A program made the translations under genes and the position numbers. A DNA stretch of 42,846 bases from Terriglobia bacterium (GTDB taxonomy: Bacteria > Acidobacteriota > Terriglobia > UBA7540): the NCBI GenBank assembly GCA_020072925.1, contig JAIQGA010000005.1:1-42846 (forward strand), written 5' to 3'. This document shows positions 11,433 through 36,697 of this stretch, one piece after another. Within the stretch, counting starts at the first letter, position 1. Each line of letters starts with the position of its first letter. The notes beneath the pieces are model-generated. The model made no database searches, had not been told where the DNA came from, and saw nothing but the letters and a program-made list of their open reading frames with translations.

Positions 11433-11451
11433 GTCTCACCGTTGAAATGGC

Positions 11452-12939: not shown

Positions 12940-12959
12940 TCGATTATCGTAACATTGCT

Positions 12960-13018
12960 TCGGGATTCCGGATTTCCCGAGTCCCTAATCACGAGTCCCG
13001 AGTCACGGGTCCCGAGGA
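12960..13018. repeat. short imperfect repeats of a CGAGTCCC-like unit
   Basis: Between the GH59 stop and the TPR gene, GAGTCCC/GGGTCCC units occur at least three times in tandem, interleaved with CACG. TCACGAGTCCCGAGTCACG is nearly palindromic. This may be a small intergenic repeat or a stem-loop that shapes the operon transcript. Confidence 0.35.
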
Positions 13019-15010: not shown

Positions 15011-15056
15011 GGTTGTGATTCCTCCTCTTCTGCGTGGCGCGGATAAGAAACGGCGC

Positions 15057-16478
15057 TTAGTGCCGCAATAACAGGTCCTCGATTTCCTCCAACGTTTTGC
15101 CTTTGGTCTCCGGCAAGCGGAACTTGATGAACAGGAAGCCGGCGACGCATACAGCCGCGTAAATCCAGAAAGTCTTCGCGGGACCCAGGCCCGCGTTCAG
15201 AAGCGGGAATGTGTAAGTAAGAATGAAGCAGGCGATCCAGAGGGACGTGACCGCGACGGACATTGCCGCGCCGCGAATGCGATTGGGAAAGATTTCCGAA
15301 ATAATGACCCAGGTAACCGGCGCCAGCGACGTGGCATAACAACCAATCGCTGACACCACCAGCAGCAGCATGTGAACGCCCTGGCTCCCCGCCGCATAAC
15401 CGCCACCCAACAGCGTATAGATGATCGCCAGGCCGGCCGAGCCCACCAGCATCAGAACTCGGCGTCCGGCTTTATCCACAAGACTCATCGCCACGAGGGT
15501 GAACAGCAGGTTTACGGCGCCGGTAATCACGATGTTAAGCAGGATGTCGGAAACCTTGTAGCCTGCCGCCGCGAACACTTCCTCGGCATAGTTGAAGATG
15601 ACGTTGATCCCGCACCACTGCTGAAACACCGCTAAAACGATGCCGAGAAGGAGAATCTTCCGCAGGCCGGGTTCGAGCAGGTCGCGCACCGTCCCATGAG
15701 CAGTTTCGCTGGCCAGCGCGGACTCGATTTCCTCCAGGGTATGGGCTGCATAAACTTCGCCGCCAATCCGCGCGAGGACTCTCTGCGCGGGCCCCGCCAA
15801 GCCGTTTTTGGCCAGCCACCGCGGGCTTTCAGGAACCATGAACATACCGATAAAGAATAGCAGGGATGGAATTGCCGTCACTCCAAACATCCAGCGCCAC
15901 CCAAGCTGGCCGTTCCAGGAATTGAGAATATCAAGGGCGGTGGCGTCAGCAGGGACCGGCCGGGCAATCAGCCAGTTGCAGAACTGCGCGAGCAAGATGC
16001 CGATAACGATGGTGAGTTGATTGACGGACACCAATCTGCCCCGCCGTGCGGCGGGCGCGGTCTCGGCAATGTACATGGGCGAGAGATTGGAGGCAATGCC
16101 GATCGCCACGCCGCCGCTGATTCTCCACAAGACAAACTGCGCAAACACATTCGCCATCGCCGTGCCCAGCGACGAAACGGCGAAGAGTGAGGCTGCAGCG
16201 ATCAGGAGTTTCCTGCGGCCGTAGCGGTCGCTGAAAGTCCCCGAAATCAGCGCACCGATGAGGCAGCCCACCAGGGCGCAACTCATCGCCCAGCCCTGCT
16301 GGCTGGCGGTGGTGAGGTGGAAGAATTTCTCGTAAAAGGGCTTCGCTCCTCCGATCACCACCCAGTCGTAACCGAAAAGCAGTCCACCCAGGGCCGCGAC
16401 AAGTGAAATCGCCCACGTGTACGCCGTGCCGAACCCCGGTGAGGAGTTCGCAATCTCGGTTTTGACGACAGGTGTCAT
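15057..16478 (-). CDS. sugar-porter-family MFS transporter (473 aa)
   Basis: Twelve hydrophobic segments are seen, with the sugar-porter signatures in order: GGLLFGYDWVVIGG in helix 1, DRYGRRK at 84-90, PESPRWL from 216 before the central loop, the QQWCGIN motif in helix 7, DKAGRR in loop 8-9 and PETKGKTLEEIE at the C-terminus. These match XylE/GalP-type H+ or facilitated hexose/pentose transporters of the inner membrane. It begins 13 bases after the GH5 stop and is followed 46 bases later by GH59, so the operon can hydrolyse a glycan outside the cytoplasm and import the monosaccharide, probably galactose or glucose (inference). Confidence 0.92.
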   Translation of the reverse strand: MTPVVKTEIANSSPGFGTAYTWAISLVAALGGLLFGYDWVVIGGAKPFYEKFFHLTTASQQGWAMSCALVGCLIGALISGTFSDRYGRRKLLIAAASLFAVSSLGTAMANVFAQFVLWRISGGVAIGIASNLSPMYIAETAPAARRGRLVSVNQLTIVIGILLAQFCNWLIARPVPADATALDILNSWNGQLGWRWMFGVTAIPSLLFFIGMFMVPESPRWLAKNGLAGPAQRVLARIGGEVYAAHTLEEIESALASETAHGTVRDLLEPGLRKILLLGIVLAVFQQWCGINVIFNYAEEVFAAAGYKVSDILLNIVITGAVNLLFTLVAMSLVDKAGRRVLMLVGSAGLAIIYTLLGGGYAAGSQGVHMLLLVVSAIGCYATSLAPVTWVIISEIFPNRIRGAAMSVAVTSLWIACFILTYTFPLLNAGLGPAKTFWIYAAVCVAGFLFIKFRLPETKGKTLEEIEDLLLRH

Positions 16479-16491
16479 GAGTGGTTGCTTT

Positions 16492-17733
16492 TCACCTACA
16501 GGGTGGGATGACGGCCTGCAAACTGCCGAGTAAGGTCATCCCCGTACCGGACTCTTCCGGGACCGCGGGCCCATTCCAGGAAGTGTTGAGGACGCCATAG
16601 GTCTCCTCGGCGCCGAAGGTGCGCGTTGTGCCGGCCGCCTCGGTCCCGTTGAGGGCCCAGTAGCACCAATCCATATCACTTTGCCGCAGATATTGCAGAA
16701 AACTGGTAAACCAGAAACCCTGGGAGCCCGCCGCCGTATCCTGAAAGCAGGAGACGTGGGTGTGGCAAGTCCCGAATTCGCCGACCCAAACGGGAGCGGC
16801 TTCACTTTGGGTGAGGATGTAACCCCAGGACTGATTCAGTTGCTGCTGCATCTGGCTGAAGCTGGAGAGCCCGCTGTGAAACCAGGCGTAGTTGTGCGCG
16901 GAATAAACGACATGATTCGGTATGTTCAAAACGATGGGCGACTGCGCCACGCCGGTCAAATCCGAGGCATAGTTTAGCCCCTCGACGATCACAAGCAGGT
17001 TCGGATTGGCGCTGAGGATGGCATTGCCCGCGCGTTGGGCCGCGGCGTGCCAGTCGTACTGCGGGTTGCCGCCCCAGGTGGCCCCGGAACGAAGTTCGTT
17101 GCGCAAGTCGGCCGCGATGACCGCGGGCTGAGACTTGTAACGCTCCGCCATGCCCTGCCAGTCGGCAACCCAGTTTTTCTCCGGGTATTGGGCGTTGTAC
17201 CAGAGTCCGTTGCCGTCGTTCTCGGTGCAGCACCAGTCGGCGTTGCTCATGTGGTTATCCAGGATAACCAGCAGGCCTTGAGCGGCCAGCGCGTTGACTA
17301 CGGCGTCAAAAACTTCCATGGCGTGCAGGCCCTTAAGTTGTGGATTGGCCGCCACCACCGCATCGCCGACCAGTGGGTTGCTTTCGTAGAGCTCGTTGGA
17401 CCACGGCAGCCGCACGGAATTGAATCCCAGGCGCTTGATTTGCGCGGCGATATCATCCACCGTCGCCAGATCGAGGCCGGCCGCCACGAAGTCCTTTTCC
17501 TCGGCGCCGTACCAGTTCACACCCGCCAATTTCACGCGCTGGTTATTGTGATCTAAAATCCACCGCCCTTGAGTGTGCAGCGGAAAGGCGGGTGTAACGG
17601 CCGGCGGCGGGCAATTCAGTTGGCTGTGGTTCGTTTTTCTGTAGGTGACTGTGCAAGCTCCGCACAACAAGGCCAGCACGGCCAACAGGGTTTTCATCAG
17701 CCGTGCAGAGCGTTGGGGATCAGATTCAATCAA
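16492..17733 (-). CDS. GH5-family glycoside hydrolase, probable lipoprotein (413 aa)
   Basis: The GH5 TIM barrel runs from about 55 to 400: VKLAGVNWYGAEEKDF, FNSVRLPWSNELYESNP, LLVILDNHMSNADWCC, then the acid/base Glu213 in DLRNE and the nucleophile Glu319 in WVGEFG. The cysteine-rich DNHMSNADWCC resembles a GH5 group also found in plants and fungi. Activity could be beta-glucosidase, endoglucanase or glycosphingolipid-active. The frame starts at a TTG (17733) with GAGGT eight bases upstream. An ATG at 17697, giving MKTLLAVLALLCGAC, is the alternative and makes a neater lipoprotein signal, but no ribosome-binding site precedes it. It follows the receptor gene after a hairpin (17810-17836). 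Confidence 0.88.
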   Translation of the reverse strand: MIESDPQRSARLMKTLLAVLALLCGACTVTYRKTNHSQLNCPPPAVTPAFPLHTQGRWILDHNNQRVKLAGVNWYGAEEKDFVAAGLDLATVDDIAAQIKRLGFNSVRLPWSNELYESNPLVGDAVVAANPQLKGLHAMEVFDAVVNALAAQGLLVILDNHMSNADWCCTENDGNGLWYNAQYPEKNWVADWQGMAERYKSQPAVIAADLRNELRSGATWGGNPQYDWHAAAQRAGNAILSANPNLLVIVEGLNYASDLTGVAQSPIVLNIPNHVVYSAHNYAWFHSGLSSFSQMQQQLNQSWGYILTQSEAAPVWVGEFGTCHTHVSCFQDTAAGSQGFWFTSFLQYLRQSDMDWCYWALNGTEAAGTTRTFGAEETYGVLNTSWNGPAVPEESGTGMTLLGSLQAVIPPCR

Positions 17734-17864: not shown

Positions 17865-20800
17865 TTACCAGTAGAACTTCAAGGCGAGTTGGATCTCTCG
17901 TGGGATCCCGCGCGTGCCATTGATCACGCCGAAGTTCTGGAGGTCCGTATAGTTCGAGCTCTTGAAACTATTCCCGAAATTGGGGTGATTGAGGAAGTTG
18001 AAGAATTCGCTGCGGAATTCCAAGTGAGTGGTCTCGGAGGTTCGGAAATCCTTGAAGAGCGAAAAGTCGAAGTTGTTGAAACTCGGTCCGTGGATCTGGA
18101 AGGGCCTGCCTCCCAGCGGTGCGAAATCGGTCTGGCCGACCGTGGTTGCCACCGGGGGGTTGGCAAAGGCCGCGGGATTCATGAACTGGTTGATGCCATG
18201 CGGGCCCAGTTGCGTATAGAGGGCCTGGCCCGGAACCAGGAAGGCAACGCAGTTGTTGCCGGAGGGGAGGGCATTTGTAGTGATAGCGCAGCCGATATTG
18301 AACGGAAAACCATTCTGGAGGGTTAGAATCCACTGGGTATTCCATCCTCCAATCACGTGGTTGACAGGGCCGGACACGTTCCCTCCAAAATGCTTGCCTT
18401 TCCCAAACGGGAGTTGGTAGATCCCGCTGGCGTGGAAGATCTGGGGAACATCGGAGCCGCAGAAATGGTAGTCCTTCTTGATGCCGAAGCCCGGAATGGT
18501 AGATGCTCGGTAAAAGAAACCATCGCCGAAGCTACCCAGGATATTCTTGTCCGTCGTCATGCAATGCGCATAAGTGTAATCAGCCAGGACGGTCAATCCC
18601 TGGCTCATTCTTCGCGTGTACGAGAATTGCAGGCCGTTATACCAGGCATCCGCGTTGGGAGCCACGTAGTCGCTGTTCTGCTGAAAGTCCGGGAAGGGTA
18701 TGTAATCCTTCACAGGTGTGTTGGGGGGAAGGAGCACATTCGGAACATTGCGCTTGTCCCCACTCAACATGTGGCGAGTGGAATTCCCGACATAACCCAG
18801 CGAGACGGTCTGATTCGGGGTGAATTGGTATTCGAGCGTGAAATTCCATTCCTGCGTGTAGGCCGTCTTCCAGGGCTGTTGATAGCCCACCAGACCTAGT
18901 CCACTCGCGCTGAAGCTCGGGCTGTCTGAGGTCGGGACGATTGACAGCAGGCCGCGTTCGAGTGTCGCATGCTGGCCGTCGGAATATACGATAGGAGAAA
19001 CGTCATTGTTCCGGAAGGCAGATAGATTGACGGCGAAGGGGTAATTGTAGCCGGGGTCGGGAGCGCCGCCGACGTTTTCAAATCCTCCATAAAAGATGCC
19101 GTACGCGGCACGCATCACCAACTTTGGTGTAGGCGAGTAGGCCAAACCTACACGGGGAGCGAAGTTGGTGAGCGGAGTATTGGTCAGGCCCGCCTCCGTA
19201 CTATAGACGAGCTTGATCCCATCCTGGGCGAGGAGCGAGGTAAAAGACGGAGAGAGCGGCGTGGTTTTACGATTAATCAGGTACGCGGCGTTCCCTCCGG
19301 GGGTTCCGGGAACAAAGTTGGCCTGCGCCCCATATTTTTCGCGAATCTGGCCAAAGAACTCCCAGCGCAAGCCGAGGTTCACGGTGAGTTTCGGAGTTAC
19401 TTTCCAGTCATCCTGGAAGTAGGTGCCGTAGTAGTGGCGAATATCGTCGATGTTGCTGATGTTGGAGGCAAACACCCCATTTGGCCCCCCGACGTTGTCG
19501 ACACCGCCAGGCACGGTGGAGGCGATCGGGGTCAAGAGCAGATCCGCCATGCCCGTGGTTGGGCCGCCCACGCCGGGAATCCCCGTATAACCGCCAAAGT
19601 CGAATTCCCCGCGCGACCAGGCCGGATCAATCCAGGGGAAGCGGACGGACTGATACTCAAATCCGCCCTTGAAGGTGTGCGAGCCGTAAATCTTGGTCAA
19701 GTTCTCCGTGAACTGCGTGGTGTTGCTGATTCGGCCGTTGGGGCTGGCAAAGGCGCCTGCGCCAAGGCCGGTAAGCCCGCTGATCGAGATGGTCGGCAAT
19801 CCCCCGTTCTGATTTCCCTGTGGAACGCCCGGAATGCCGAACTGCTCAGGCACGCCTGGGGTGTTGGCATAGGGGGGCTGGGATGTGGTTCGCAGACGGC
19901 TGAACCCGAACCGGGCCTCATTGATCATTGTCGGCGTGAAGGAGTGGGTTTCGCTGAAAGCCAGATTCAGCGACATGTCATTGAAGTCGCCCCCGCCGAA
20001 GGGGGGGTTAGTCCCGAGACCCGTAAAGTCGCCGGGAATGTTGGCGTGCCGTTTGCTGTAGCTGGCCCGGCCAAACATCTGGTCGCGATCGCTGAAATTG
20101 TGGTCCACGCGGACATCGAAGTGATTGTTATCGTCAGGCTGGCTGAAGTTGGCCGCGTAATCATTGTAGAACGTTCCCTGCAGGTTGGCGTCCGGATAGA
20201 GGTTCAGCAACTTGATGGCGTTGGAGTCAAGCCGACCCTGCGGAAGTTGGTTTAGGTAAGCCATCTGCGCGGCACTGGTGAAGTCGGTAACGCCCGTCAG
20301 ACTAGCGCCAGTATAAAACGGATCCCGAACGTACCCGTTCGCCGTGGCCGTCAGCCCGGTCTCGGGATCGACCTGGCCGGCCGCGACTTGGCGTGTCGTG
20401 GCAGGGTCGAAGATCGTCGTCGCCGGGAACGTCCGGCCCAGCGCGTCCTGGCGTGTGCCGGTGACCAGGGTCAGCAGATCCTGGAAGTTCGTGTAGCCGC
20501 TGGCCCGCTCAGCCCCTGTCGGAACCGTAGGATTGTGGAAAGAGGTCTGGCGAATTCGCGTGCCTTCGTAGTCCCCAAAGAAAAATGTCTTGTTCCTGCC
20601 ATCGTAGACATGAGGGATGACGATCGGTCCGCCCACGGAGGCGCCAAACTGATTTTGCCGCAAGGTGCTTTTCTGTACCCCCGCCGCGTTCTGGAAGAAA
20701 TAGGCCGAATCGAGTTTGTCATTGCGGAGAAATTCCCAGGCGCTGCCGTGAATCTTGTTGGTGCCGGACTTGATCGTCGCGTTCAGCACCGCTCCGCCGG

Positions 20801-21527
20801 CGCGGCCAAACTCCGCGCTGAAATTGCCGGTCTGGAGCTTGAATTCCTGAATCGCGTCCGGGGGAGGCAAATTCACGTAGGAGGCGCCATTCAGGAAATC
20901 CACCGTATCGTTGTTGTTGTCAATCCCATCGAGGATGTAGTTGTTGTGGACCGTGGTCAATCCGTTAGCCACAAAACTCCCCGTCAGGTCCATATTGCGC
21001 GAAGGGTTAATGCTCGTGACCCCGGCCGAGAGTTGGGCGAGAAATGTATAGTTGCGGCCGTTCAAGGGCAGGTCCAGGATCTCGCGCGTGCTCGCCACCA
21101 TCCCCACCGAGGCATTTTGGGTCTGGAGTTGCGGCGGCGCACCCGTCACCTCGACAACCTGGGTCAGCGCCCCGGGAACCAGGGTAAGATCAACGACGAC
21201 CTGCTGCTGAACGTTGACGGTGACATGGCTTTGGATCGCCTTACTGAAGCCCGACATCTCGACTTCAACGCTATAAGTCCCAATCCTGATTGGAGTGAAA
21301 ATGTAGCTGCCGTCATTGGTGGTTGTGGTGGTGAGGGCAAGGCCCGTGCCCTCGTTGGTGAGTGTAACCTTGGCGCCTGGCACGACGGCACCTGACTGGT
21401 CTTTGATGGTGCCCAGCACAGTTCCGGTGTCCACTTGGGAAAAAGCCGGAACCGCTGTGACCAGGATGGCCGCCCAGAGCACAAAGATCGAAACACTCCT
21501 GATATGTCTCCAAGGCTTCCGTGTCAT
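17865..21527 (-). CDS. TonB-dependent receptor with carboxypeptidase-regulatory-like N-terminus (1220 aa)
   Basis: A signal peptide ends near residue 30 (AVPAFSQ). A carboxypeptidase-regulatory-like Ig domain follows at about 35-115 (GTIKDQSGAVVPGAKVTLTN). The plug lies at about 125-260 (STREILDLPLNGRNY, NNYILDGIDNNND, EFKLQTGNFSAEFGRAGGA), and a 22-strand-type barrel ends in the aromatic LALKFYW. This Oar-like architecture is the expanded TonB receptor type of Acidobacteriota, used for oligosaccharide uptake through the outer membrane. There is no adjacent SusD gene, as is usual in this phylum. It diverges from a LacI-family gene and precedes GH5, a sugar transporter, GH59 and GH2 on the same strand, so it is likely the uptake gate of that locus. 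GGGAGCGG precedes the ATG. Confidence 0.93.
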   Translation of the reverse strand: MTRKPWRHIRSVSIFVLWAAILVTAVPAFSQVDTGTVLGTIKDQSGAVVPGAKVTLTNEGTGLALTTTTTNDGSYIFTPIRIGTYSVEVEMSGFSKAIQSHVTVNVQQQVVVDLTLVPGALTQVVEVTGAPPQLQTQNASVGMVASTREILDLPLNGRNYTFLAQLSAGVTSINPSRNMDLTGSFVANGLTTVHNNYILDGIDNNNDTVDFLNGASYVNLPPPDAIQEFKLQTGNFSAEFGRAGGAVLNATIKSGTNKIHGSAWEFLRNDKLDSAYFFQNAAGVQKSTLRQNQFGASVGGPIVIPHVYDGRNKTFFFGDYEGTRIRQTSFHNPTVPTGAERASGYTNFQDLLTLVTGTRQDALGRTFPATTIFDPATTRQVAAGQVDPETGLTATANGYVRDPFYTGASLTGVTDFTSAAQMAYLNQLPQGRLDSNAIKLLNLYPDANLQGTFYNDYAANFSQPDDNNHFDVRVDHNFSDRDQMFGRASYSKRHANIPGDFTGLGTNPPFGGGDFNDMSLNLAFSETHSFTPTMINEARFGFSRLRTTSQPPYANTPGVPEQFGIPGVPQGNQNGGLPTISISGLTGLGAGAFASPNGRISNTTQFTENLTKIYGSHTFKGGFEYQSVRFPWIDPAWSRGEFDFGGYTGIPGVGGPTTGMADLLLTPIASTVPGGVDNVGGPNGVFASNISNIDDIRHYYGTYFQDDWKVTPKLTVNLGLRWEFFGQIREKYGAQANFVPGTPGGNAAYLINRKTTPLSPSFTSLLAQDGIKLVYSTEAGLTNTPLTNFAPRVGLAYSPTPKLVMRAAYGIFYGGFENVGGAPDPGYNYPFAVNLSAFRNNDVSPIVYSDGQHATLERGLLSIVPTSDSPSFSASGLGLVGYQQPWKTAYTQEWNFTLEYQFTPNQTVSLGYVGNSTRHMLSGDKRNVPNVLLPPNTPVKDYIPFPDFQQNSDYVAPNADAWYNGLQFSYTRRMSQGLTVLADYTYAHCMTTDKNILGSFGDGFFYRASTIPGFGIKKDYHFCGSDVPQIFHASGIYQLPFGKGKHFGGNVSGPVNHVIGGWNTQWILTLQNGFPFNIGCAITTNALPSGNNCVAFLVPGQALYTQLGPHGINQFMNPAAFANPPVATTVGQTDFAPLGGRPFQIHGPSFNNFDFSLFKDFRTSETTHLEFRSEFFNFLNHPNFGNSFKSSNYTDLQNFGVINGTRGIPREIQLALKFYW

Positions 21528-21652: not shown

Positions 21653-21690
21653 GTGCACGCACACGTTATCGTGCACGTGCACGCACGTTA
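21653..21690. promoter_or_regulatory. candidate LacI-family operator cluster
   Basis: CGTGCACGTGCACG at 21670-21683 is a perfect 14-bp palindrome with a central CG, the hallmark of LacI-family operators. It is embedded in two direct repeats, GTGCACGCACACGTTA at 21653-21668 and GTGCACGCACGTTA at 21677-21690, offset by 24 bases. It lies 143 bases from the receptor start and 267 bases from the LacI-type gene start, so it can serve both. A second small inverted repeat, CTAGG-GAAAA-CCTAG, is at 21732-21746. Confidence 0.6.
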
Positions 21691-21949
21691 CGCCTCCAAC
21701 TCCTGTAAGTCAAGGGCAAAGTTTGAATCTACTAGGGAAAACCTAGAATTATTGTAGTATGCACAAACTGTCCATCCGGAATTCTTGCGCCCGATTCGTT
21801 GGGCACCCATATGGAAGGAGACTTCGAAAACATACCCGGTGCGGGCAGCGGCGCTACAGCGATTGCGCTTGACAGGGTGGGATTTCATGGGGCATGTATT
21901 CAGCACGCGAGCCCGGATTACGACCCTTCTGCCAGGAGAGGAGATTGCA

Positions 21950-23077
21950 GTGCCCGCTAAAGACTCGAGAAGGGCTTCACGCAGACGTGCCGAGCAGATT
22001 GGAGTGCAGGGCATTGCGGACGCGTTGGGTATCTCGCGCGGGACCGTGGATCGTGCCCTGCACAACCGAGGCGGGGTTAATCCGCGCACCAAGCGTCGAG
22101 TTCTCCGCGCTGCCCAGAGGCTTGGATACCGGCCCAATCTCGCCGCCCGCTATTTATCTTCCAAGAGGAGCCTCACCATCGGCATCGCCCTGCCGTTGGA
22201 GGTCGCTTTCTTTTACGACGACATTCGGGAAGGTATCTTCGAGGCCGCGAGCGTGTACGAACCCTTGGGCGTCAAAATCCTCCACCGGACCTACAAGAGG
22301 TTCGGCGAGCATGAAATCGACGCCGTCCGCGATGTCTTGCAGGAGGACATTCGGGGATTGGTGATTTCACCGGCCTACCCGAACCGCCTCCGGCCTTATA
22401 TCGACGAGGCCGCCAGCCGGAATATCCCCGTAGTATGCGTGGCCACGGACGCGCCGGAAACAAAACGCCTCACCACGGTATCGGTGGACCCGCTGGTATG
22501 CGGAGCGCTGGCGGGAGAGCTCATGGGGTATTTTCTTCATGCGGGCGGAAACGTCGTGGTCTTTATCGGGATGCACGCCACCGTGGATCACGAGCAGAAG
22601 CTGCGAGGTTTTCGGTCGAGCCTTCGCGAGTTTTGCCCCGAGGGAAAGATTGCAGCCGTCGTCGAAACGCATGATGAAGCCATGGAGGCATACCAGAAAT
22701 GCCGGGACATTCTGCAACAGCAACAGCCTGTCGCGGGTATCTACGTCAGCACGGCGAATTCCATGCCGGTCCTCCGCGCTCTGGAAGAATTGGGTTTGAC
22801 GGGAAAGGTCAAGGTCATCTGCACGGATCTTTTCCCCGCGCTGTTATCTCACATCAAGTCAGGCGCGGTGGCCGCGACCATTCACCAGCGGCCGCGGGAA
22901 CAGGGGCGCGCGGCGTTCCGCACGCTGGTTCGGTATCTGACGGAAGGGATCACTCCCGAGCCCGGGATATCTCTGAATCCCGCCGTGGTCATGCGGAGCA
23001 ATCTCGAATTGTTCACCGTTAACGGGACTTCCAGGTCGGCGCTGGTCTCGCAGGACGCGTGGGGGCCAGGCCGGTAG
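21950..23077 (+). CDS. LacI-family transcriptional regulator (375 aa)
   Basis: The DNA-binding domain lies at about residues 15-65: GVQGIADALGISRGTVDRAL then GGVNPRTKRRVLRAAQRLGY, with hinge-like PNLAARYLSSKRSL. The remainder is a periplasmic-binding-protein-like sugar sensor (TIGIALPLEVAFFYDDIREG, GLVISPAYPNRLRPYIDEAA, GVYVSTANSMPVLRAL-like strands). The start is a GTG at 21950 preceded by AGGAGAGGAG. The open frame extends 55 codons upstream to 21785, but that part is unlike the family and the ribosome-binding site fits the GTG. It diverges from the TonB-receptor operon. It ends 17 bases from the convergent TPR gene. Confidence 0.9.
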   Translation: MPAKDSRRASRRRAEQIGVQGIADALGISRGTVDRALHNRGGVNPRTKRRVLRAAQRLGYRPNLAARYLSSKRSLTIGIALPLEVAFFYDDIREGIFEAASVYEPLGVKILHRTYKRFGEHEIDAVRDVLQEDIRGLVISPAYPNRLRPYIDEAASRNIPVVCVATDAPETKRLTTVSVDPLVCGALAGELMGYFLHAGGNVVVFIGMHATVDHEQKLRGFRSSLREFCPEGKIAAVVETHDEAMEAYQKCRDILQQQQPVAGIYVSTANSMPVLRALEELGLTGKVKVICTDLFPALLSHIKSGAVAATIHQRPREQGRAAFRTLVRYLTEGITPEPGISLNPAVVMRSNLELFTVNGTSRSALVSQDAWGPGR

Positions 23078-23094: not shown

Positions 23095-25653
23095 TCAGCG
23101 CTCCGCCTCACCCAGCGCCAGCGCCAGTTGCAAGAACTCGGCGCGCGCCTGGGGAGACAGGGGAGCGGTCGCGCGCTCCGAAGGTCTCGAAGCCGGCGCC
23201 TGATTGAGAGTTTCCTGGATGCGGCTCACGTCAAATCCCCCGTGGGGGAACATCTCACTGTACCTTTGAAGGGTTTCGCGGGCCTCCCGGAACCGGCCGG
23301 CTTCATAGTAGAAGATGCCCAACGTGCCGTAAGCGCTCTCGCGCGCGGGCATCAAATCCACGGCTTTTTTCAGGCAAGTCTCGGCGCGCTCGTCGTCCCC
23401 GCTCAGAACGTAAACCACGCCCTTGCCCCAATAGAGCCGCCCGGAATCGGGAATGTGCGCCAATCCTTCCTGGAGCACTTTCGAAGCCGCTTCCAAATCA
23501 CCGGCGCGGATCTCGGCGAGCGCCAGGGAAAGGTAATACTCGTCGTTGTCCGGACTGTTGTGAACGGCCTTCTGCAGGACCGGGATCGCCTCCGAGGCCC
23601 GCCCTAAGCGAGCGAAGGTGTCCCCCAGCAAAACCAGGTAAGCATCGTCCTTCTGACCGTCGGGCGAAACCCTTTGCAGCGAGTCAAGGGCCTTGGAGTA
23701 TTCTCCGGTCTGAAAGTAGGCGTTAGCGAGGTTGTATCGCGCGTCGTCGGAAGCGGGGTTCGCGGCAATCGCTCCCTGGAAATGCTCAATCGCCTCCGGG
23801 TACAAGCGGTACCGCGCCAGCAAGGCGCCCACTCCCAGCAGGGTGCGGAAGTCCCCGCCGCTGATCGTGTCGAGTCGCTTGATTGCCTCTTCCGCCTCCT
23901 GGGTACGGCCCAGCTTAAGATACGACTCCGCCAGCAGGTAAAGCTCACGAGGTCGATCGGGGTGTCGCTTGATTTCCTGCGCGAGTTCCGCCAAATCCAT
24001 TTCGCTCTTTTGTTGTGACGAAAGTGTTTCGCGTCGATGGAGATAGTCAAAGAGATTCTGGAAGGGATACGGCGACGGCGCTGGATTCTTGGACAACGTT
24101 TGGAAGACCTTCAGATCTCTCTCTGCGGCTTCCGTTTGGTGAAGGCTGCGTTCTGCCAGGGCCAGCTTGTAATAGGCCTGCGCGGGTTTCGGGCTGATTT
24201 GCGCGCAGCGGCGAAGCAGGGGTAAAGCTTCCTCAAAGCGCTTTTGTTCGGTCCTCAGGCTGCCCAATTCAAAGAGCGCATCGGAGTAATTGGGATCGAG
24301 TTTGAGAGCCCGATCCAGATACTTCTCCGCCGCGGCGGACTCGCCCTGCTTCTTGGCGATGAAACCGAGATTGTATAAACAAGCCAGGTTATTCGGGTCC
24401 GCCTTCAGACCCTCCTGGAAATACTGCTGTGCCTGATCAAACCTTCCCATGTGCCGATAGCAGAGGCCCATAAAGGCGTAGGAGGGGGCCGTCGGGTCGA
24501 GTTGAAGGAGAGTCTTGAACTCCTCGATCGCCTTATCGACTTTGCCGACGGTGAAGTAGCTTTCGCCCAGCGCCGCGTGCAGGTCGGGCCGGCGGGGATC
24601 AATCTTCACGCCCGCTTCAAGGAGTTGAATCGCGTCGTCATAGAAGGACTGTTTCATGCTGAGTCGCGCCAGTAGGAACATGACGTCGGTATTCTGCGGA
24701 GCGAGTTCCCGGGCGCGCACCAGCAACTCGAGAGCCTGAACGTCCTTCCCGAGGTCGTTTGCCGTCTGGGCAAGAAGATAGAGCGTGTCCGCGGACTTGG
24801 GCTGCAACTTCAGCGCTTGCTCGAGAACGTGTTGGGCCTTTTGCGAACTGCCGTCCCGCAAATACGCCTGTCCCAAGTCGTGGAGGATTTCAAATGTTCC
24901 GGGTTCGAGAGCGTTCGCCACTTCAAATTCGTGTACCGCCGGCGAATACTGCTTGTGTGTGGCGAGTATGACGCCCAGGGAGAAGTGGAGCTTCACGTCC
25001 TTGGGTTCCTGCGCCGAAAGCGTCTGCACCGTTTTGAGACCTTGCGGATTCTGCCCGGCTTGGAAGTACGCCTGCGCCAGGTTGAAGAGGGTGCTGGCAT
25101 CGGGAGAATCAATCCGCTCGAGAGCGGCGACCGCCTCCTTCGCCTTGCGTGCTGCCAGGAGAAGGACCCCCAGGTTGTAGTTCGCCGTGCGATTGCGCGG
25201 CTGAATCCGCAAAGTCTCGCGGAACATCTTCTCCGCAAGGTCGAGCTTCTTCTGGCTGGTGTAGCTGATTCCGAGATTATTCAGCGTCTCCACCGAGCGT
25301 GGGTTGATCTCCAATGCTCTCTTGAAAGCTGCAACCGATTCCGCATCGTTGTGTTGCTGACTGTAAATCATCCCAAGCAAATTAAGGCCCTCGACGCTGC
25401 GCGGGGAGCGCGCCAATCCGCGCTGCACGACCTTCAACGCCTCGTCCAAGGCGCCCTGGGCGAACAACCTTCGGGCCTCTTCGAATTCCTCCTGCGACGG
25501 CACCCCCGCTCGCGCGGAGTTCTTCTGGGTGGCATGCGACCCCGAAACGACATGGGGAATTGCAGCGACGGTCGCGCGTTGAAGCGCGGGACGGAGCAGC
25601 AACGCCAGCAGGCAAGCCTCAAGAGCCATCCGCTTTCGTTTCTGGGAGCGCAT
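23095..25653 (-). CDS. large exported TPR-repeat protein (852 aa)
   Basis: A basic N-terminus and hydrophobic stretch (ALEACLLALLLRPAL) suggest a signal anchor or signal peptide. TPR units can be followed from about residue 50 to 810, well over fifteen of them, for example AVAAFKRALEINPRSVETLNN and EFKTLLQLDPTAPSYAFMGL. A break near 505-560 (PAPSPYPFQNLFDYLHRRET) may be a linker between two superhelices. No catalytic motif is seen. It diverges from the DUF1501-like gene at 25861 and converges on the LacI gene. Its partner is unknown; a scaffold at the periplasmic or outer-membrane face is inference. Confidence 0.88.
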   Translation of the reverse strand: MRSQKRKRMALEACLLALLLRPALQRATVAAIPHVVSGSHATQKNSARAGVPSQEEFEEARRLFAQGALDEALKVVQRGLARSPRSVEGLNLLGMIYSQQHNDAESVAAFKRALEINPRSVETLNNLGISYTSQKKLDLAEKMFRETLRIQPRNRTANYNLGVLLLAARKAKEAVAALERIDSPDASTLFNLAQAYFQAGQNPQGLKTVQTLSAQEPKDVKLHFSLGVILATHKQYSPAVHEFEVANALEPGTFEILHDLGQAYLRDGSSQKAQHVLEQALKLQPKSADTLYLLAQTANDLGKDVQALELLVRARELAPQNTDVMFLLARLSMKQSFYDDAIQLLEAGVKIDPRRPDLHAALGESYFTVGKVDKAIEEFKTLLQLDPTAPSYAFMGLCYRHMGRFDQAQQYFQEGLKADPNNLACLYNLGFIAKKQGESAAAEKYLDRALKLDPNYSDALFELGSLRTEQKRFEEALPLLRRCAQISPKPAQAYYKLALAERSLHQTEAAERDLKVFQTLSKNPAPSPYPFQNLFDYLHRRETLSSQQKSEMDLAELAQEIKRHPDRPRELYLLAESYLKLGRTQEAEEAIKRLDTISGGDFRTLLGVGALLARYRLYPEAIEHFQGAIAANPASDDARYNLANAYFQTGEYSKALDSLQRVSPDGQKDDAYLVLLGDTFARLGRASEAIPVLQKAVHNSPDNDEYYLSLALAEIRAGDLEAASKVLQEGLAHIPDSGRLYWGKGVVYVLSGDDERAETCLKKAVDLMPARESAYGTLGIFYYEAGRFREARETLQRYSEMFPHGGFDVSRIQETLNQAPASRPSERATAPLSPQARAEFLQLALALGEAER

Positions 25654-25674
25654 TCAATTTCCCGATTCAGTCAC

Positions 25675-25702
25675 GCTGCCAATCCACTTTGGCGTTGGCA
25701 GC
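25675..25702 (-). repeat. 8-bp inverted repeat in the leader of the TPR gene
   Basis: GCTGCCAA at 25675-25682 and TTGGCAGC at 25695-25702 are perfect arms around a 12-base loop, 22 bases upstream of the TPR start. In RNA this is a stable hairpin just ahead of the ribosome-binding region; as DNA it could be an operator shared with the divergent gene. Confidence 0.45.
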
Positions 25703-25860
25703 ACGCTTAGATTCAAACTCGAAATCGTTGACCAGGTCAAGAGGACGAAGAGCGAACGCAACGTCAGCGGACGGCCGGGGCACTCGAACTGTGGTATATT
25801 GCGGCCCTCGAGGAGCCCCGCGGCGACGATGGCGTCTCGCGTCACGGGGCGTTCAGCAGT

Positions 25861-27024
25861 ATGGATCCTTCCAAGCGCACGTTTCTTCGTGCAGCCGGCT
25901 TGCTTGTCGCAGACAGCATTCTATCCCACCAGCTACGTGGCGGTGATGCACCACGGAAATATTCAGACAGCCGCAAGGTCCTCCTGGTTATCCTGGGCGG
26001 GGTCCGGGACCAGGAGACTTTCTCGCCGGAGGGTCAGATCAACATTCCGCATCTGGCCAATGACCTGGTGCCGCAATCTTTGTTCTATCGGCAATTGCGC
26101 AATGAGGGCGTCACGGCGCATTTCAACACGACGTCCAGCATTCTGACGGGCACCTGGCAACGCGTGGATGACTGGGGCAAACTCGCCCCCACGAGTCCGA
26201 CGCTTTTCGAATACCTCCGCAAGCAGGCAGGGATTCCGAAGAGCGACGTGTGGGTGGTCGCCAGCAATAAAGCGCTCACCAACCTGATCGGAGCGAGCTC
26301 GGCGCGCGACTACGGGCCGGAATATGGCGCGAACGTGGTCTTCCCGAAGCAGCTCCTGATCACGGCCGTCGAAAACGCTCTCCGGCAGGGGCGCAGCCGC
26401 AATTTCGCGGACCGCTCCAAGGTGCAGGCGGAAATGGAAGCGATGCTTCGGGACAACAATTATGAGGGCCTCGGCTGGACGGTCTTCGACGCCGCGGAGC
26501 ACCTGGACGCACGTGCGCGAAGGATCATTGAAGATGCCGTGGCCGCCTTTGTTCAAAATACCGGCCCTACGAGCGGAGACGAGCTCACGTATTTCGTCAG
26601 CCGCGAGGTTATGCGCGCGTTCGCGCCCCGATTGCTGGTGGTGATCTTCTCCGACATGGAAGCCGCGCATTTCGGCTCCTATTCCATGTACGTCGGAGGA
26701 ATCCGTACTGCCGACCGCCTCACGCACCAAATCTGGCAGGAGGTGGCGTCCAACGACGAGTATCGGGGACGAACGACCATGGTAGTCCTCCCGGAATTCG
26801 GCCGCGACCCGGACGGCTCCTCGACCAATGGCTTTTTTAACCACCGCAGCGCCGAGGATTCATGCCGCAAGACGTGGATGATGTGCCTGGGCGATGCGGT
26901 GGAGAAGCCGCAGACCGTTGAACGGCCGGTACGTCATATCGATTTGAGTCCGACGCTCGCCCAACGGCTCGGCTGCCGCATGCACGAAGCACGTGGCGAA
27001 CGGCTCGTGGAATGGCGGGTTTAG
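25861..27024 (+). CDS. DUF1501 / alkaline-phosphatase-superfamily-like protein with Tat-like signal (387 aa)
   Basis: The N-terminus SKRTFLRAAGLLVADS is a Tat-type signal with Lys-Arg in place of Arg-Arg. The body has VLLVILGGVRDQE in the position of the first metal-binding strand of the superfamily, SILTGTW, and VVLPEFGRDPDGSSTN, which parallels the S/T-EFGRTP motif of DUF1501 proteins. HIDLSPTLAQRLG near the end matches the common tail of sulfatase-like members. The expected metal ligands are not all in place, so it may be non-catalytic. It diverges from the 852-residue TPR gene and is followed 34 bases later by an unrecognised gene. No strong ribosome-binding site is present at this ATG. 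Confidence 0.7.
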   Translation: MDPSKRTFLRAAGLLVADSILSHQLRGGDAPRKYSDSRKVLLVILGGVRDQETFSPEGQINIPHLANDLVPQSLFYRQLRNEGVTAHFNTTSSILTGTWQRVDDWGKLAPTSPTLFEYLRKQAGIPKSDVWVVASNKALTNLIGASSARDYGPEYGANVVFPKQLLITAVENALRQGRSRNFADRSKVQAEMEAMLRDNNYEGLGWTVFDAAEHLDARARRIIEDAVAAFVQNTGPTSGDELTYFVSREVMRAFAPRLLVVIFSDMEAAHFGSYSMYVGGIRTADRLTHQIWQEVASNDEYRGRTTMVVLPEFGRDPDGSSTNGFFNHRSAEDSCRKTWMMCLGDAVEKPQTVERPVRHIDLSPTLAQRLGCRMHEARGERLVEWRV

Positions 27025-27058
27025 ATACCCGGTTTCCGGCACGCCCCCGAGACCCATC

Positions 27059-28345
27059 ATGAACGCCGATCCGCAATTACCGGAGGAAATCCGCAAGGCC
27101 GTCAAGAATGGTCTTCTGAGCCGCCTGCCTCTGAGCTTTCTGCCGTTCACGAACCAGCAGATTCATGAGTGGGATTACCTGTTCGATTACGAGCGGCGAT
27201 ACCTTCTGCGGACCCTCGCTTACCTCGACGGGCTCGATCCCACGAGCTTCTCCACCCTCTTCCATGGGCTTCGCGAAATCGAAAACCGCATGGGGCTTCC
27301 GCACAGCCCGTTTTCCACTCGCGCCTCGACCCTGGAATCGTCTTCCTGGTTGGCGAGGTCGCCATACTACCAGGCTTGGCGATCGGAGGTTCAGAACGTT
27401 TTCGCGCAGATTGAACGTGGCTCCGAACAGCAAAGTGGGGGAGAGAAGCCCATAAATCGAGCGATCATCCTGATCCTCGCCGCGAAACTGCCGCTCGCGC
27501 CACCTACTGTATGGGGACATTGGAAAGGGACGGGCTCTGAGTTCACCCTCGAGCTTCCGCCCAACGCAAACTCGCGCGAAGTTCTTTTCGGAAACCCCTC
27601 AGCCCCATCAAGCCTGAGTGCGATGCTGCGGGGGCGGAGTAAGCCAACGGATAACGACGTCTGGTTCATCGATGCGGGCAATGAACTGGGCAGCATGGTC
27701 CCGGATTTCTCAGAAACGGGCGGCGCTACCCCGATTGCGCTCAGCTTTGAACGCCTGAAAATTCTCCGCGAAGGCTTTCTGGAGCGTATCAACGCTATTC
27801 AGAAAGACCTTGCGGGTGCTGATGCGGTCTACGAACATCTGCGCAAACTGAGCCTGGACGCGTGGTGCCCGCCGGAAATCGCGTCGCAGCCGCCGGTGCG
27901 CGAGTTTCTCCGCAACCTCTTCCTCAGCGGGAACGGTTCCCCGGTCTTTGGCAATTCGTTTGTCGAGTGGGCCGCTTCGGAGGCCATGCGCCGCGCCCGG
28001 CCCTCGGTCCTCGTGGCGCGGTTCGGCACCCGCCTTCGGCCCAAACCGTTTACCAGCGTCGCCGTGTTCGAAAACCAGGAGCGCGCCAATCCGCTCCCAG
28101 CCGTAGAAGACTTGGAGGGCAGCGCGCTCGATGCCCAGGTGCTCGCCTACTACACCGGGCTGGCAGCCTGGCGCTATCCCGAGTACCGCGCCCGCACCGT
28201 GATTCTGTGCTTAGCTGAAGCCCTTCCCCGCGCGTTTCTGGCGGCGCCGAAGGGGTTTCCACTGGAGGTTGGTTCCGGGCCGCTAAGTGCCAACCGCCTC
28301 AACGCTGCTCTCGTTGAGTGGCTGAGAGTTGGCGCAGAAACTTAA
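27059..28345 (+). CDS. unrecognised protein, partner of the DUF1501-like gene (428 aa)
   Basis: I do not recognise a domain. The product is soluble by composition, with no signal peptide. It has a helical N-terminal half (FTNQQIHEWDYLFDYERRYL, TLAYLDGLDPTSFSTLFHGL) and a C-terminal half with strands such as PSVLVARFGTRLRPKPFTSV. The start chosen is the ATG at 27059, which follows the upstream stop by 34 bases. An earlier in-frame start at 26993 would overlap the neighbour and add a poor sequence. The tight spacing suggests co-transcription with the DUF1501-like gene and possibly joint function with the divergent TPR protein. Confidence 0.7.
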   Translation: MNADPQLPEEIRKAVKNGLLSRLPLSFLPFTNQQIHEWDYLFDYERRYLLRTLAYLDGLDPTSFSTLFHGLREIENRMGLPHSPFSTRASTLESSSWLARSPYYQAWRSEVQNVFAQIERGSEQQSGGEKPINRAIILILAAKLPLAPPTVWGHWKGTGSEFTLELPPNANSREVLFGNPSAPSSLSAMLRGRSKPTDNDVWFIDAGNELGSMVPDFSETGGATPIALSFERLKILREGFLERINAIQKDLAGADAVYEHLRKLSLDAWCPPEIASQPPVREFLRNLFLSGNGSPVFGNSFVEWAASEAMRRARPSVLVARFGTRLRPKPFTSVAVFENQERANPLPAVEDLEGSALDAQVLAYYTGLAAWRYPEYRARTVILCLAEALPRAFLAAPKGFPLEVGSGPLSANRLNAALVEWLRVGAET

Positions 28346-32840: not shown

Positions 32841-33442
32841 TCATGCGGCACTACTTGCCGCTCGTCCCGTCTCACTGTGCCTGTCCAATACTGCAATTAG
32901 ACCAGGCAGGGCGCGATGCCCAACAATGCGACGAAACTGGCCTTCCGCCACGACTAAACCAGAACCCACCCAGCGTTCGAGATGATCGCCAGGCCGCCAT
33001 CGCTTTACGTTTCGGCAAGCCACCCGGAGGATGGTGAAGACCGACTCAATCGGATTCGTGCTGCGCAGCGTCCGACGCAGCTCCGGCGACGCCTTCAACC
33101 GATGCAGCGTGAGCGTTTCCTCTAGCCCTTCCGCCAAGCTGCGTGCCGCACTGGGGTTCACCTCCCGGAGTTCGCGTTGAATTCGTTCCAATTTCATCTC
33201 CCCGCGTTGGCCGCGCACCCGTGGCCTGTGAATAGGTAGCTTCTGACCGTGAACCACGACCGAACCGCCGACGCGGCCCCAACGTCAAAGTTCCCGGTCG
33301 TGTCGCCCTGCGTGTGGGTTGCCGGTCAGCAAGCCACCTCGTCGTCCATAATCATCAATAGCAGTCGCTTCTCGGCTTCGTGGAGGAGCTGGGAGACTCC
33401 TTGCTGGAGCAACTGAGCAATTTCAGCGAGGGAAAGGACCAT
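32841..33442 (-). mobile_element. degraded IS256-family transposase remnant
   Basis: The C-terminal portion is unmistakable: SLAEGLEETLTLHRL, then ELRRTLRSTNPIESVFTILR and NVKRWRPGDHLERWVGSGL. The N-terminal portion reads MVLSLAEIAQLLQQGVSQLL and LLLMIMDDEVAC, then after a one-base frame break LTGNPHAGRHDREL, a stop, and GGSVVVHGQKLPIHRPRVRG. The two portions are joined directly at RGQRGE-MKLERIQREL, so the central DDE-bearing part is deleted. At least three lesions make it inactive. Its upstream end runs into the last codons of the large gene at 33355. No terminal inverted repeats were identified. Confidence 0.82.
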
Positions 33443-36306
33443 TTGGATGGTGCCGGGATCGTTCGACTGGAGACCTTCTCGGGCTCCCATTCCACTCGCA
33501 CCACGACCCCATCTGCGTCGTTGGGAAATTGCAGGAGTACCGAATCTCCCTCGGTGTGAGAAGTGATGGGGACCGATGCGCCCAGCACCGTGAACGCCTT
33601 CACGTTTTTGGGGCGGCGTTGGCCTGCCCAGATTCGGGCCGCGCCCTCTGTCTGAGAGGGGGCCTGCGCCAGGAAAGAGGTTATTTGCGCCCCCTGATAG
33701 TAGGCCCGGAGGCGGCCCGACACCGCCAGGATACGGGGAGCCCCCACTGGCCGTCCCGCCTCCGCCAGGAAGGCGCATTCGCGCGCCGGAATTGTATAGT
33801 TCTCCACTACCCGCAGGCTCGGGCTGAACAGGTCGACGAAACGGCCTTGCACCTTGTAGGCCTTATCCAAGGTGCGAATGGCCATGTAAGGACCTCGCCG
33901 GACCAGGAAGTAAGGTTGCTCCCGGTAGTTCTCACCTGCCTTCCCAAGTGCGTACTTCACCAGCATGCGCAGCCATCTCGACCCTGGGTCGGTATTAAGG
34001 AAACCGGGTTCCACGCCAACATAAACTGCCGTCCCCTTGCCCACCGACGCTTCCCAGACGGCAGGCACCGACTCCCCTTCCATCCGATAGAGCGACCTCC
34101 CCCCAGGAGGCGGTTTGTACAGGGTCACCGGATAGGTTCGCCGAGGCTCCCGTGATGTTGCTTCTTCTAATAAGTGGCCCAGAGAAAGTTCTCGACGGTA
34201 GTCTTCTTCACCCGATGACGGGCCAAGCGGAACGCAGAGGCGCGCCAAGTTCGAGTCGAATTCAGGGCTGGTGGCATCGAGGCATGCATCCCTACCAGGA
34301 TTGGAAAGAACCTTTGCCGCCTGAATCGGCAGGCCCATTTGCGCGAACAAGGCTTCACCGGGGGAGGCCAACCCGATCCGCCGCCACCAGGACTCAGAGA
34401 CCGCGTTGTAAGCGTCCGTGCCCCCGAAAAACACCAGCGTCCCGCCACGCCGCGTCCAGTCGGCCAGGGCGCGGTTTTGGCTCGCATCCGTCGGTTTGAG
34501 AAAATCGTACGAGGCGAGCAAGACTTTAGCCGACTCCAAATAGCCCGGCTCCGTCACACGGTCCAATGAGAGCACGTCCACAGGTACTCCCTGGCGCACG
34601 AGCGGTCGCGACAGACCAAAGAAGCCGTCGAAATCGCTGGGAGACGGCTCGGCGCGCTGCCACCCCATCGAATCTGCGATGAAGGTGCCGATCCCGCGGC
34701 TGCCTGCTTCCACTTCCCCCCTCGGATACCTCCAGAACTCGCTCAGGGCACCCGTCACTGTGTTAATTAACGTCTCATATTCTTTGGGAACATGCCCGTA
34801 GATTCGGTTCGGCCAGATCAGTGGCTCAAAGGTGTCCACCTGCGGGTACATCAGCGCCGCCAATACGTTGTCCCCGTAGCTGTGTCGATAGAAGTCCAGG
34901 GACATCGCGGGACTGTCACCCCAGGGGTCCATCATGAACCAGAGGCGCCTGCGTGTGCCGCGCACCAATTGATAAAAGGAGGAGTATTCCAAGTAGCCCA
35001 CCTCAAATGGTTGGTTCCAAACCTCGGCGACCACTTCCTGCAAGGCGGGAATGTCGACCAGACTATGATGTGGCGTCGCCATCCGAATAAGGTAATAATT
35101 GATTGGGCTGTGCATTGCGAGCATGCGCGTCGCGGAAGGCTTCCGCTGCTGTACGGCCGTCAGGATCTCCTCCACCCAGCGCCGCATTAGGAACGCTTTG
35201 AGTTGCTCGGACTTGTAGCGTGCGTCCACGCTTCTATGAGGTGGTTCCCAAGGCATGCCGTATCTTGCCTTCCACTCCTGCTTAAAGGCTTCCGAATAGC
35301 CTGCCTGAGCCCAGATTTCGGGTTCGTCAAAGCAGAATCCAGTGGCGCCTGCGTCTAAGGGCCTGGTGTAATATTGCGTGGCGACATCAATCCTTGCCTG
35401 CGTTGGCACCTTATAGTAGTCAGTGGCCTCAATGCTGATGCCATCGCCGTGCCGTTTCACCATAGCGGCCTTCAGCTCTCGGGTCAGCGCCCCCACAGCC
35501 ATATCAATGGGATTGCCGTCGCGCTTCACCTCCATAACGACCAAGGGATTACCGTTCCGATCGGTCTGATTCTCTTCGGCACGATCGCGGATTTCCCGCC
35601 CGTAGCGACTGTGGAGGAATGTTTGCGTCTTAAACCCTTTCTCGGCCCAGCTTGAGTACACGTTGAAATCCGTGGCAGGCGTCCATAGATAGAGCTGAAC
35701 GGCATCGGCCGGCACGGCCATACGCGGGTCACACGGCTCGGCGAAAAAGAAACCGGTGTGTGGTTCATCGGGACGCGGAATAACGGTGCAACGCTCGCCG
35801 CTGCGCAAACCCATCATGGTCTCTACCGCGTCGCTCACGCCGTCTCCGTGGCGGTCTGGAAGGGCCAAGGTCAGCTTCACCTGGCAAACCGAAATAGGTC
35901 CGCCTCGAGCACGGAATTGAAATCGTAGCTCCCCGCCAAGCGGATGGTTCGACGGAATCGTCGCATGAAGCGTGTACTTCGTTCCGTCTTTCTCCATGCG
36001 AGTCGTCACTGGCTTAGCGTCCGACGAGGTGACGGTTACCTCCGTGGCCCCTTCCGCATCAAAGGTCAGCGTACACTCCGCCTGCGGAGGCACCACAACC
36101 CGATACGTCCAACCCCCGCCCGCCGTCGCTCGGCGCGCCCCTCTCTCAACTGAACTGCCGAAATCCTCCATCACAGCGCTAGCCTCTGCAGGCGTGCCGG
36201 GTACCAGGAAAACCGTTTGGCGGACCTCCCCGCGCAACGACGCCGTGATCCACGGACAACAAACAATCACGAGCAGAACTAGTGCAGTTCTGGGGTGCTC
36301 TTTCAT
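33355..36306 (-). CDS. large secreted glycosidase-like protein with beta-galactosidase trimerisation-type domain (983 aa)
   Basis: A signal peptide (ALVLLVIVCCPWITASLRG) precedes a beta-rich domain and a calcium-loop-like DRHGDGVSDAVE at residues 151-162. A TIM-barrel-like middle follows (VQLYLWTPATDFNVYSSWAE, GFCFDEPEIWAQAGYSEAFK, DPWGDSPAMSL). A Rossmann-like module (VLLASYDFLKPTDASQNRAL, GGTLVFFGGTDAYN) then resembles the trimerisation domain of GH42-type beta-galactosidases. I cannot assign a GH family with confidence. The ATG at 36306 follows AAGGA; a start ten codons earlier is less likely. The last 30 or so codons (after VEWEPEK) overlap the IS256 remnant in another frame, so the original C-terminus was probably replaced by insertion. 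Confidence 0.7.
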   Translation of the reverse strand: MKEHPRTALVLLVIVCCPWITASLRGEVRQTVFLVPGTPAEASAVMEDFGSSVERGARRATAGGGWTYRVVVPPQAECTLTFDAEGATEVTVTSSDAKPVTTRMEKDGTKYTLHATIPSNHPLGGELRFQFRARGGPISVCQVKLTLALPDRHGDGVSDAVETMMGLRSGERCTVIPRPDEPHTGFFFAEPCDPRMAVPADAVQLYLWTPATDFNVYSSWAEKGFKTQTFLHSRYGREIRDRAEENQTDRNGNPLVVMEVKRDGNPIDMAVGALTRELKAAMVKRHGDGISIEATDYYKVPTQARIDVATQYYTRPLDAGATGFCFDEPEIWAQAGYSEAFKQEWKARYGMPWEPPHRSVDARYKSEQLKAFLMRRWVEEILTAVQQRKPSATRMLAMHSPINYYLIRMATPHHSLVDIPALQEVVAEVWNQPFEVGYLEYSSFYQLVRGTRRRLWFMMDPWGDSPAMSLDFYRHSYGDNVLAALMYPQVDTFEPLIWPNRIYGHVPKEYETLINTVTGALSEFWRYPRGEVEAGSRGIGTFIADSMGWQRAEPSPSDFDGFFGLSRPLVRQGVPVDVLSLDRVTEPGYLESAKVLLASYDFLKPTDASQNRALADWTRRGGTLVFFGGTDAYNAVSESWWRRIGLASPGEALFAQMGLPIQAAKVLSNPGRDACLDATSPEFDSNLARLCVPLGPSSGEEDYRRELSLGHLLEEATSREPRRTYPVTLYKPPPGGRSLYRMEGESVPAVWEASVGKGTAVYVGVEPGFLNTDPGSRWLRMLVKYALGKAGENYREQPYFLVRRGPYMAIRTLDKAYKVQGRFVDLFSPSLRVVENYTIPARECAFLAEAGRPVGAPRILAVSGRLRAYYQGAQITSFLAQAPSQTEGAARIWAGQRRPKNVKAFTVLGASVPITSHTEGDSVLLQFPNDADGVVVRVEWEPEKVSSRTIPAPSKWSFPSLKLLSCSSKESPSSSTKPRSDCY

Positions 36307-36697
36307 GAATGTCCTTGGATGTCTGTTTTCTCCCAACCTGCCTCCTGACTCTAGATATCAAATCCCAATACAAGTGCAAACCAACCCGACGCCAGCGGAT
36401 TACGGCTTCGGGCCTGACCACGATGAGGCACTGCTTCCGACCGGACCAGATTCGACGAGCAACCACCAGAAAAGCCTGTCAAACGAGCCAAGGCTGGTTC
36501 GCGGAGGGCGCCGTTTCAGTACCGCAAGGTGTTGCAGTTACACGAGGTCTTCGAGGAGAAGAATCCGTGAGCCAGAGGAACGCCGCAGTAGGGCCAGAAG
36601 CTACTCCCCCTGAATCGGTTGGCGTCTTCAGGAATCACGGCGCCTTCCCCCGATTGCAGCTAAGCGCCTCCCAAGAATTTCACAGCTTAGGCCAGAC
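36307..36697. other. 391-base intergenic leader of the large glycosidase-like gene
   Basis: The two minus-strand genes on either side are separated by this stretch. Open frames on the plus strand here are antisense chance frames. Apart from the AAGGA ribosome-binding site just upstream of 36306, I see no convincing promoter or hairpin. Confidence 0.4.

Follow-up and report, generated by a model that had tools for sequence, protein, structure and literature searches.

Several systems resemble parts of the locus described here. The alkaline phosphatase (AlkP) superfamily comprises canonical enzymes, such as the phosphatase PafA, nucleotide pyrophosphatases/phosphodiesterases (NPPs), and S1 sulfatases, as well as relatives such as the DUF1501 proteins (PF07394) and PbgA/YejM, whose enzymatic status is debated (YejM is a metalloenzyme according to PMC7576196). 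In SusC-SusD loci, AlkP hydrolases occur with a TonB-dependent receptor, a helical-repeat companion and, sometimes, glycoside hydrolases. Moreover, substrates of the twin-arginine translocation (Tat) pathway can take a signal-less partner across the membrane (PMC4273604, PMC10924467); in such hitchhiker complexes (e.g., PaoABC, PMC4273604), one partner carries the signal peptide and the other is encoded next door. Here, we analyse a gene pair in a 42,846-bp stretch of DNA (hereafter, the window) from a Terriglobia bacterium of the phylum Acidobacteriota (GenBank assembly GCA_020072925.1, contig JAIQGA010000005.1). The products of the pair are referred to as ALP and U428:

25861-27024, + strand: ALP, 387 aa, an exported AlkP-superfamily protein and divergent DUF1501 relative with a Tat-type N-terminus (SKRTFLR), assigned by open reading frame (ORF), fold, profile, and motif.
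27059-28345, + strand: U428, 428 aa, a predicted helical N-terminal domain (1-125) followed by an apparently degenerate AlkP-like domain (130-427), with no signal peptide.

We judge it about as likely as not that ALP and U428 form a conserved module that is linked to a receptor, handles an imported ligand (probably one related to glycans), and has apparently gone undescribed.

The core of a conserved set is the inseparable pair of ALP and U428. The U428 frame begins 34 bases past the ALP stop codon, and searches of Pfam and NCBIfam gave no match at E<=1 for either protein. U428 is present in 28 of 101 related genomes and in 31 of the 396 genomes of a phylum survey of Acidobacteriota, and a pattern scan of a separate genome-contig collection yielded 15 loci. 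An ALP homologue lies immediately 5' of U428 in the window and in all 48 loci with readable upstream DNA (one U428 was excluded from this count because its contig starts inside the gene). Comparison of the two hit tables of the phylum survey places ALP and U428 together at 35 of 36 positions, the exception being a partial U428 in genome G285; all strong ALP matches in this survey are followed by U428, and none occurs without it. In some genomes, two pairs are present, either in tandem or opposed. The pairwise distances of ALP and U428 correlate with r = 0.97, a high value that common history alone would also give. Beyond Acidobacteriota, the distribution was covered only by the pattern scan, which picks up close relatives alone, and by plasmids: all matches of the scan are Acidobacteriota by title, and no U428 was found on plasmids. 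The pair can decay, as some U428 copies are interrupted by stops or frame breaks (G246:C4, G418:C2, G007:C75, and G028:C216) and ALP is also broken in G246:C4. An apparent ALP-U428 fusion in locus L044 was rejected, as its open frame crosses a stretch of N.

The pair has further companions, whose counterparts in the window lie upstream of it, together with a regulator and a run of carbohydrate genes:

17865-21527, - strand: TonB-dependent receptor (CarboxypepD_reg and OMP_b-brl_4), a member of the clade found with ALP-U428 pairs.
11452-12939, - strand: a 495-aa tetratricopeptide repeat (TPR) protein, TPR495, which corresponds to the ~480-aa TPR protein (TPR480) of relatives, whose gene stands between those of the receptor and ALP (identity of 43-52% across some 430 aa).
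21785-23077, + strand: LacI-family regulator, with the true start probably downstream of the first TTG.
9006-17733, - strand (that of the receptor): carbohydrate genes, encoding proteins of glycoside hydrolase families GH2, GH59, and GH5 and a sugar transporter of the major facilitator superfamily (MFS), in the order GH2, (TPR495), GH59, MFS, GH5.

A specific clade of TonB-dependent receptors and the ~480-aa TPR protein are conserved companions of ALP-U428. The 31 neighbourhoods compared contain 36 U428 genes, of which 32 have a TonB-dependent receptor gene no more than 10 kb away and 29 have a TPR gene no more than 5 kb away. In Acidobacteriaceae and others, the receptor, TPR480, ALP, and U428 genes follow one another in this order on the same strand with short gaps. 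Because the genomes hold many receptors of this type (at least some 36-45 each in those checked), a receptor tree was built from 26 pair-neighbouring and 40 other receptors; it is a quick tree without bootstrap, with branch supports from the Shimodaira-Hasegawa-like approximate likelihood ratio test (SH-aLRT). Of the 27 rows in one clade (SH-aLRT 99), 24 are receptors with a pair no more than 10 kb away; the receptor of the window, which matches PF25183 (E 1e-204), is among these. TPR480 and TPR495 match TPR-type models only and no SusD model.

The predicted model of ALP (predicted local distance difference test, pLDDT, 74) adopts the alkaline phosphatase core fold, with a Z score of 29 and a root-mean-square deviation of 3.0 over 300 residues to PafA (5tj3) and Z of about 25 to NPPs and sulfatases; a structure search by Foldseek also returned the AlkP superfamily (E 5e-10). 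At the profile level, ALP matches DUF1501 proteins encoded in its own genome and in related ones (prob 95.4, E 1.8e-8), and the aligned region spans the EFGR and HR motifs. An earlier note on this DNA had called the protein DUF1501-like, and by profile it is so related, without reaching the Pfam cut-off: the window protein has no Pfam match at E<=1, the best homologue scores E 0.006, and a PF07394 search of three ALP-carrying genomes (G002, G003, and G006) gave no match. When both profiles were searched against the sequences of solved structures, the sole result was a weak match of ALP to an S1 sulfatase (E 0.12), in which EFGR is aligned with DHGR.

The putative active site of ALP is strongly conserved. 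Among 48 homologues, residues G46, G47, R49, H87, D265, A269, H270, G272, D285, G314, R315, D316, N323, G324, F325, H328, and D361 are identical in every sequence that could be read there, and positions 267 and 312 hold only D or E (48/48); in particular, D265, [D/E]267, H270, [E/D]312, D316, and H328 are each found in 48/48. Two Bacteroidota proteins, one 'sulfatase-like' protein on each of two plasmids, match the ALP profile (E about 1e-15) and retain the classical residues, and these intact homologues supply the residue registration. Accordingly aligned, the Asp following strand 1 corresponds to Gly46 in ALP, the Asp-His pair (TTDHGR) to [E/D]312-Phe313 (position 313 being F, L, or V among homologues), the D-x-x-x-H motif to [D/E]267-x-A-H270, which is one residue short, and the final His to H328; the weak S1 sulfatase match independently agrees in setting EFGR against DHGR. 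H270, [D/E]267, [E/D]312, and H328 are retained, and the full canonical two-metal set is incomplete. If ten residues are counted back from the TG conserved at 96-97, His87 of ALP falls where the homologues have Ser, at the nucleophile position; MAFFT puts a gap there instead, so this placement is tentative. No Ser, Thr, or Cys nucleophile is evident in ALP. The earlier note's statement that the protein lacks clear metal ligands therefore needs correction: the canonical set is not intact, but the conservation of the six positions points to a site that is altered rather than decayed, and the alignment with the intact homologues suggests that one metal site is kept, whereas the other looks changed. 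Because its residues are conserved yet altered in this registration, ALP appears to be a re-purposed AlkP protein with one metal.

U428 appears to be the degenerate twin of ALP. All of the top 50 structural matches to residues 130-427 of its model (pLDDT 84) belong to the AlkP superfamily, with Z of 11-13; the best is the periplasmic domain of PbgA/YejM (Z 13), level with several sulfatases. Foldseek alone is weak for U428 (best E 0.014). The ALP and U428 profiles match each other with E 6e-7, the best of 30 block-shuffled controls reaching 0.014, and the U428 profile matches neither DUF1501 nor the Bacteroidota AlkP proteins. No conserved His was found among 49 U428 homologues, and of the acidic residues only E45, D351, and D358 are near-invariant. 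Given the structural matches and the ALP-U428 profile match, and despite the weak Foldseek result, U428 appears to be a pared-down relative of ALP that has no metal ligands. U428 has invariant residues of its own (W202, F301, W304, R312, R325, D351, and D358); since it retains these and is present with every ALP, it is, as judged from conservation, under selection. The earlier note had described the 428-aa protein as unknown and of no recognised family. This description still holds for the family libraries, but the fold is now recognised: structure prediction, which the note had proposed as a check, places an AlkP-like domain in the C-terminal 300 residues, behind the helical N-terminal domain.

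The two proteins also differ in their targeting signals. Of the 41 ALP homologues that are readable in this region, 40 have the motif [R/K]R-x-[F/V/L/M]-[L/M/I/A/V] close to the N-terminus, and TatC is encoded in the genome. U428 homologues have neither a hydrophobic N-terminus nor a signal peptide. As the Tat motif is present on ALP and absent from U428, and as hitchhiking is known, co-export of U428 with ALP as a Tat hitchhiker is plausible by analogy.

These observations can be joined into one scheme. ALP, with its altered metal site and Tat signal, and U428, signal-less and devoid of metal ligands, would act as one unit: U428 would probably bind ALP in the cytoplasm, and the folded heterodimer would then be exported by Tat. 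The TonB-dependent receptor would bring in a ligand that the ~480-aa TPR protein may help to hold, and periplasmic ALP-U428 would bind or cut the imported ligand in a manner comparable to the hydrolases paired with SusC-SusD. Because GH2, GH5, and GH59 genes lie nearby, the ligand in this genome is probably a glycan or glycolipid. Tentatively, the scheme may be taken further, with ALP (single metal site, invariant His87) and its metal-ligand-free twin U428 forming a Tat-exported heterodimer that would be the dedicated periplasmic partner of one receptor clade and an uptake-linked unit of an undescribed kind.

Several points weigh against this scheme. A physical complex, co-export, metal binding, catalysis, and the substrate are what we infer beyond the gene pairing, predicted folds, conserved residues, receptor clade, and Tat motif. 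In the window, the pair and the receptor do not share an operon, as the LacI-family gene and the gene of an 852-aa TPR protein (see below) intervene. Carbohydrate genes lie near some pairs only, and the substrate is weakly supported. The ALP model is of moderate confidence only, and the second AlkP protein of a comparable Hymenobacter operon (see below) is not a U428 homologue. Moreover, U428 could remain cytoplasmic.

The last point leads to the main rival explanation, in which U428 stays in the cytoplasm and serves the Tat substrate ALP as a chaperone or proofreader, as TorD/DmsD do for their enzymes, holding it until it is folded or metallated. We regard this as a serious, though doubtful, possibility. 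It would account for the position of U428 directly after ALP in every testable locus, its lack of a signal peptide, and its helical N-terminal domain. However, the Tat proofreading chaperones known so far are small, all-helical proteins, among which a 300-residue AlkP-like domain is unusual, and we know of no such partner for other Tat-dependent AlkP-fold proteins. A second rival, which takes ALP for an ordinary sulfatase or phosphodiesterase acting on the substrate of a glycan locus and U428 for a roleless, decaying duplicate, is already unlikely. The AlkP fold common to both proteins and the glycan hydrolases near the pair in the window and some relatives are in line with it, but the constant association of U428 with ALP, the invariant residues that U428 maintains, and the broken canonical ligand set of ALP are not.

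The earlier note had instead proposed a possible undescribed set that included a divergently encoded TPR protein and an inverted repeat:

23095-25653, - strand: an 852-aa exported TPR protein, a companion in the window's family and not an obligate partner.
25675-25702, no strand: an 8-bp inverted repeat, GCTGCCAA-N12-TTGGCAGC, in the intergenic region shared with ALP, not above chance.

The three ORFs and the 34-base gap are as the note described them, and a conserved set does exist, but its membership differs: ALP and U428, which are always adjacent in other Acidobacteriota, are the core, and the 852-aa protein, often a companion only in the window's family, is optional. Its orthologues (49-61% identity) occur in 18 of 38 genomes tested, including that of the window. 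Among 32 genomes of the window's family, 16 have both this protein and U428, one has the TPR protein only, three have U428 only, and 12 have neither (Fisher p 2e-5, uncorrected for kinship). The two genes lie within about 9 kb of each other on the same contig in nine of the 18 genomes, the window's included, and divergent adjacency to ALP is limited to the window and one other genome (G021). In family f10, the 852-aa protein is found in one of four tested pair-bearing genomes, where it is encoded on another contig. An export or surface-assembly unit with this protein as a scaffold is thus improbable, since its co-occurrence and linkage with the pair in the window's family are offset by the f10 genomes, by the rare adjacency, and by the lack of any secretion or assembly gene as a constant neighbour; signal peptides are the sole support for such a unit, and receptor-linked uptake or processing fits better. 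The inverted repeat exists as reported and is not significant. A perfect 8-bp short-loop repeat arises in 5% of shuffles of the 207-bp intergenic region (24% at any spacing), and no second copy of the motif was found in the 6.5-Mb genome, nor any near the receptor. The repeat was therefore rejected as a regulatory site and, given its frequency in shuffles and its uniqueness in the genome, carries no weight.

Further observations concern the neighbourhoods of the pair. In the minus-strand run at 9006-17733, which adjoins the TonB-dependent receptor gene, the GH59 protein is galactocerebrosidase-like and the GH5 protein has a weak endoglycoceramidase match; the run resembles a locus for the use of glycolipids or galactosides. 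A perfect 14-bp palindrome, CGTGCACGTGCACG, lies at 21670-21683 between the divergent receptor and LacI-family genes; it is a candidate operator, and its exact copy is unique in the window. In six loci (L048, L049, L050, L051, L052, and L065), a Tat-type Oxidored_molyb (sulfite-oxidase-like) gene adjoins ALP. Large FG-GAP/ASPIC-UnbV (CRTAC1-like) proteins are encoded near many ALP-U428 pairs (L039, L054, L057, L058, L060, and L065), and some of them have Tat-type N-termini, redoxin, and TPR parts. Elsewhere in the window, a 993-aa minus-strand ORF (33355-36336) has no Pfam match at E<=1e-4.

Members of the Acidobacteriota abound in soil, and the genomes checked contain many such receptors with few assigned partners. 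A strict pairing of an enzyme-like and a pseudoenzyme gene tied to one receptor clade offers a concrete, testable unit, and it gives one branch of the DUF1501 neighbourhood, which is large and functionally blank, a defined genetic setting. It would also represent a case of an AlkP pseudoenzyme maintained by selection beside an active-looking twin. The ALP-U428 pair is absent from the family libraries and the open literature searched, as far as the titles and abstracts of DUF1501 papers indicate, and no paper combining Acidobacteria, a TonB-type receptor, TPR, and Tat was found in that literature.

Compared with known systems, ALP is closest to DUF1501 proteins, with which it shares superfamily membership, a Tat-type N-terminus, EFGR in place of the usual DHG, and a conserved His near the final strand. 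However, two genes for DUF1501 proteins in this genome come after long frames that we read as DUF1549/DUF1553-like and are not associated with U428. ALP has the fold of PafA, NPPs, and S1 sulfatases but differs from them in Gly46 for Asp, Phe313 for His, the shortened D-x-x-x-H motif, and the lack of an evident nucleophile. U428 resembles PbgA/YejM as an AlkP fold in a use of debated enzymatic status, whereas YejM is a membrane protein and U428 appears to be soluble, free of metal ligands, and extended by a helical N-terminal domain. Tat hitchhiker complexes share the arrangement of signals and genes, but no AlkP-fold case was found among them, and we infer the co-export of ALP and U428. Unlike SusC-SusD loci, the module has a TPR companion with no SusD match, and its second AlkP protein is U428, apparently a ligand-free protein rather than an enzyme. 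A Hymenobacter plasmid (L156, 1393-8760) carries a row of SusC, SusD, a sulfatase-like ALP homologue, and a second AlkP-family gene beside phosphonate-degradation genes; this is a possible phosphonate-linked uptake locus and, by analogy, would show the logic of the ALP-U428 module in another phylum and with another substrate. Each ingredient (the AlkP fold, TonB-dependent receptor, TPR, and Tat) is therefore of a known kind, and what is apparently new is that an altered AlkP protein is obligately paired with a seemingly dead one beside a dedicated receptor clade.

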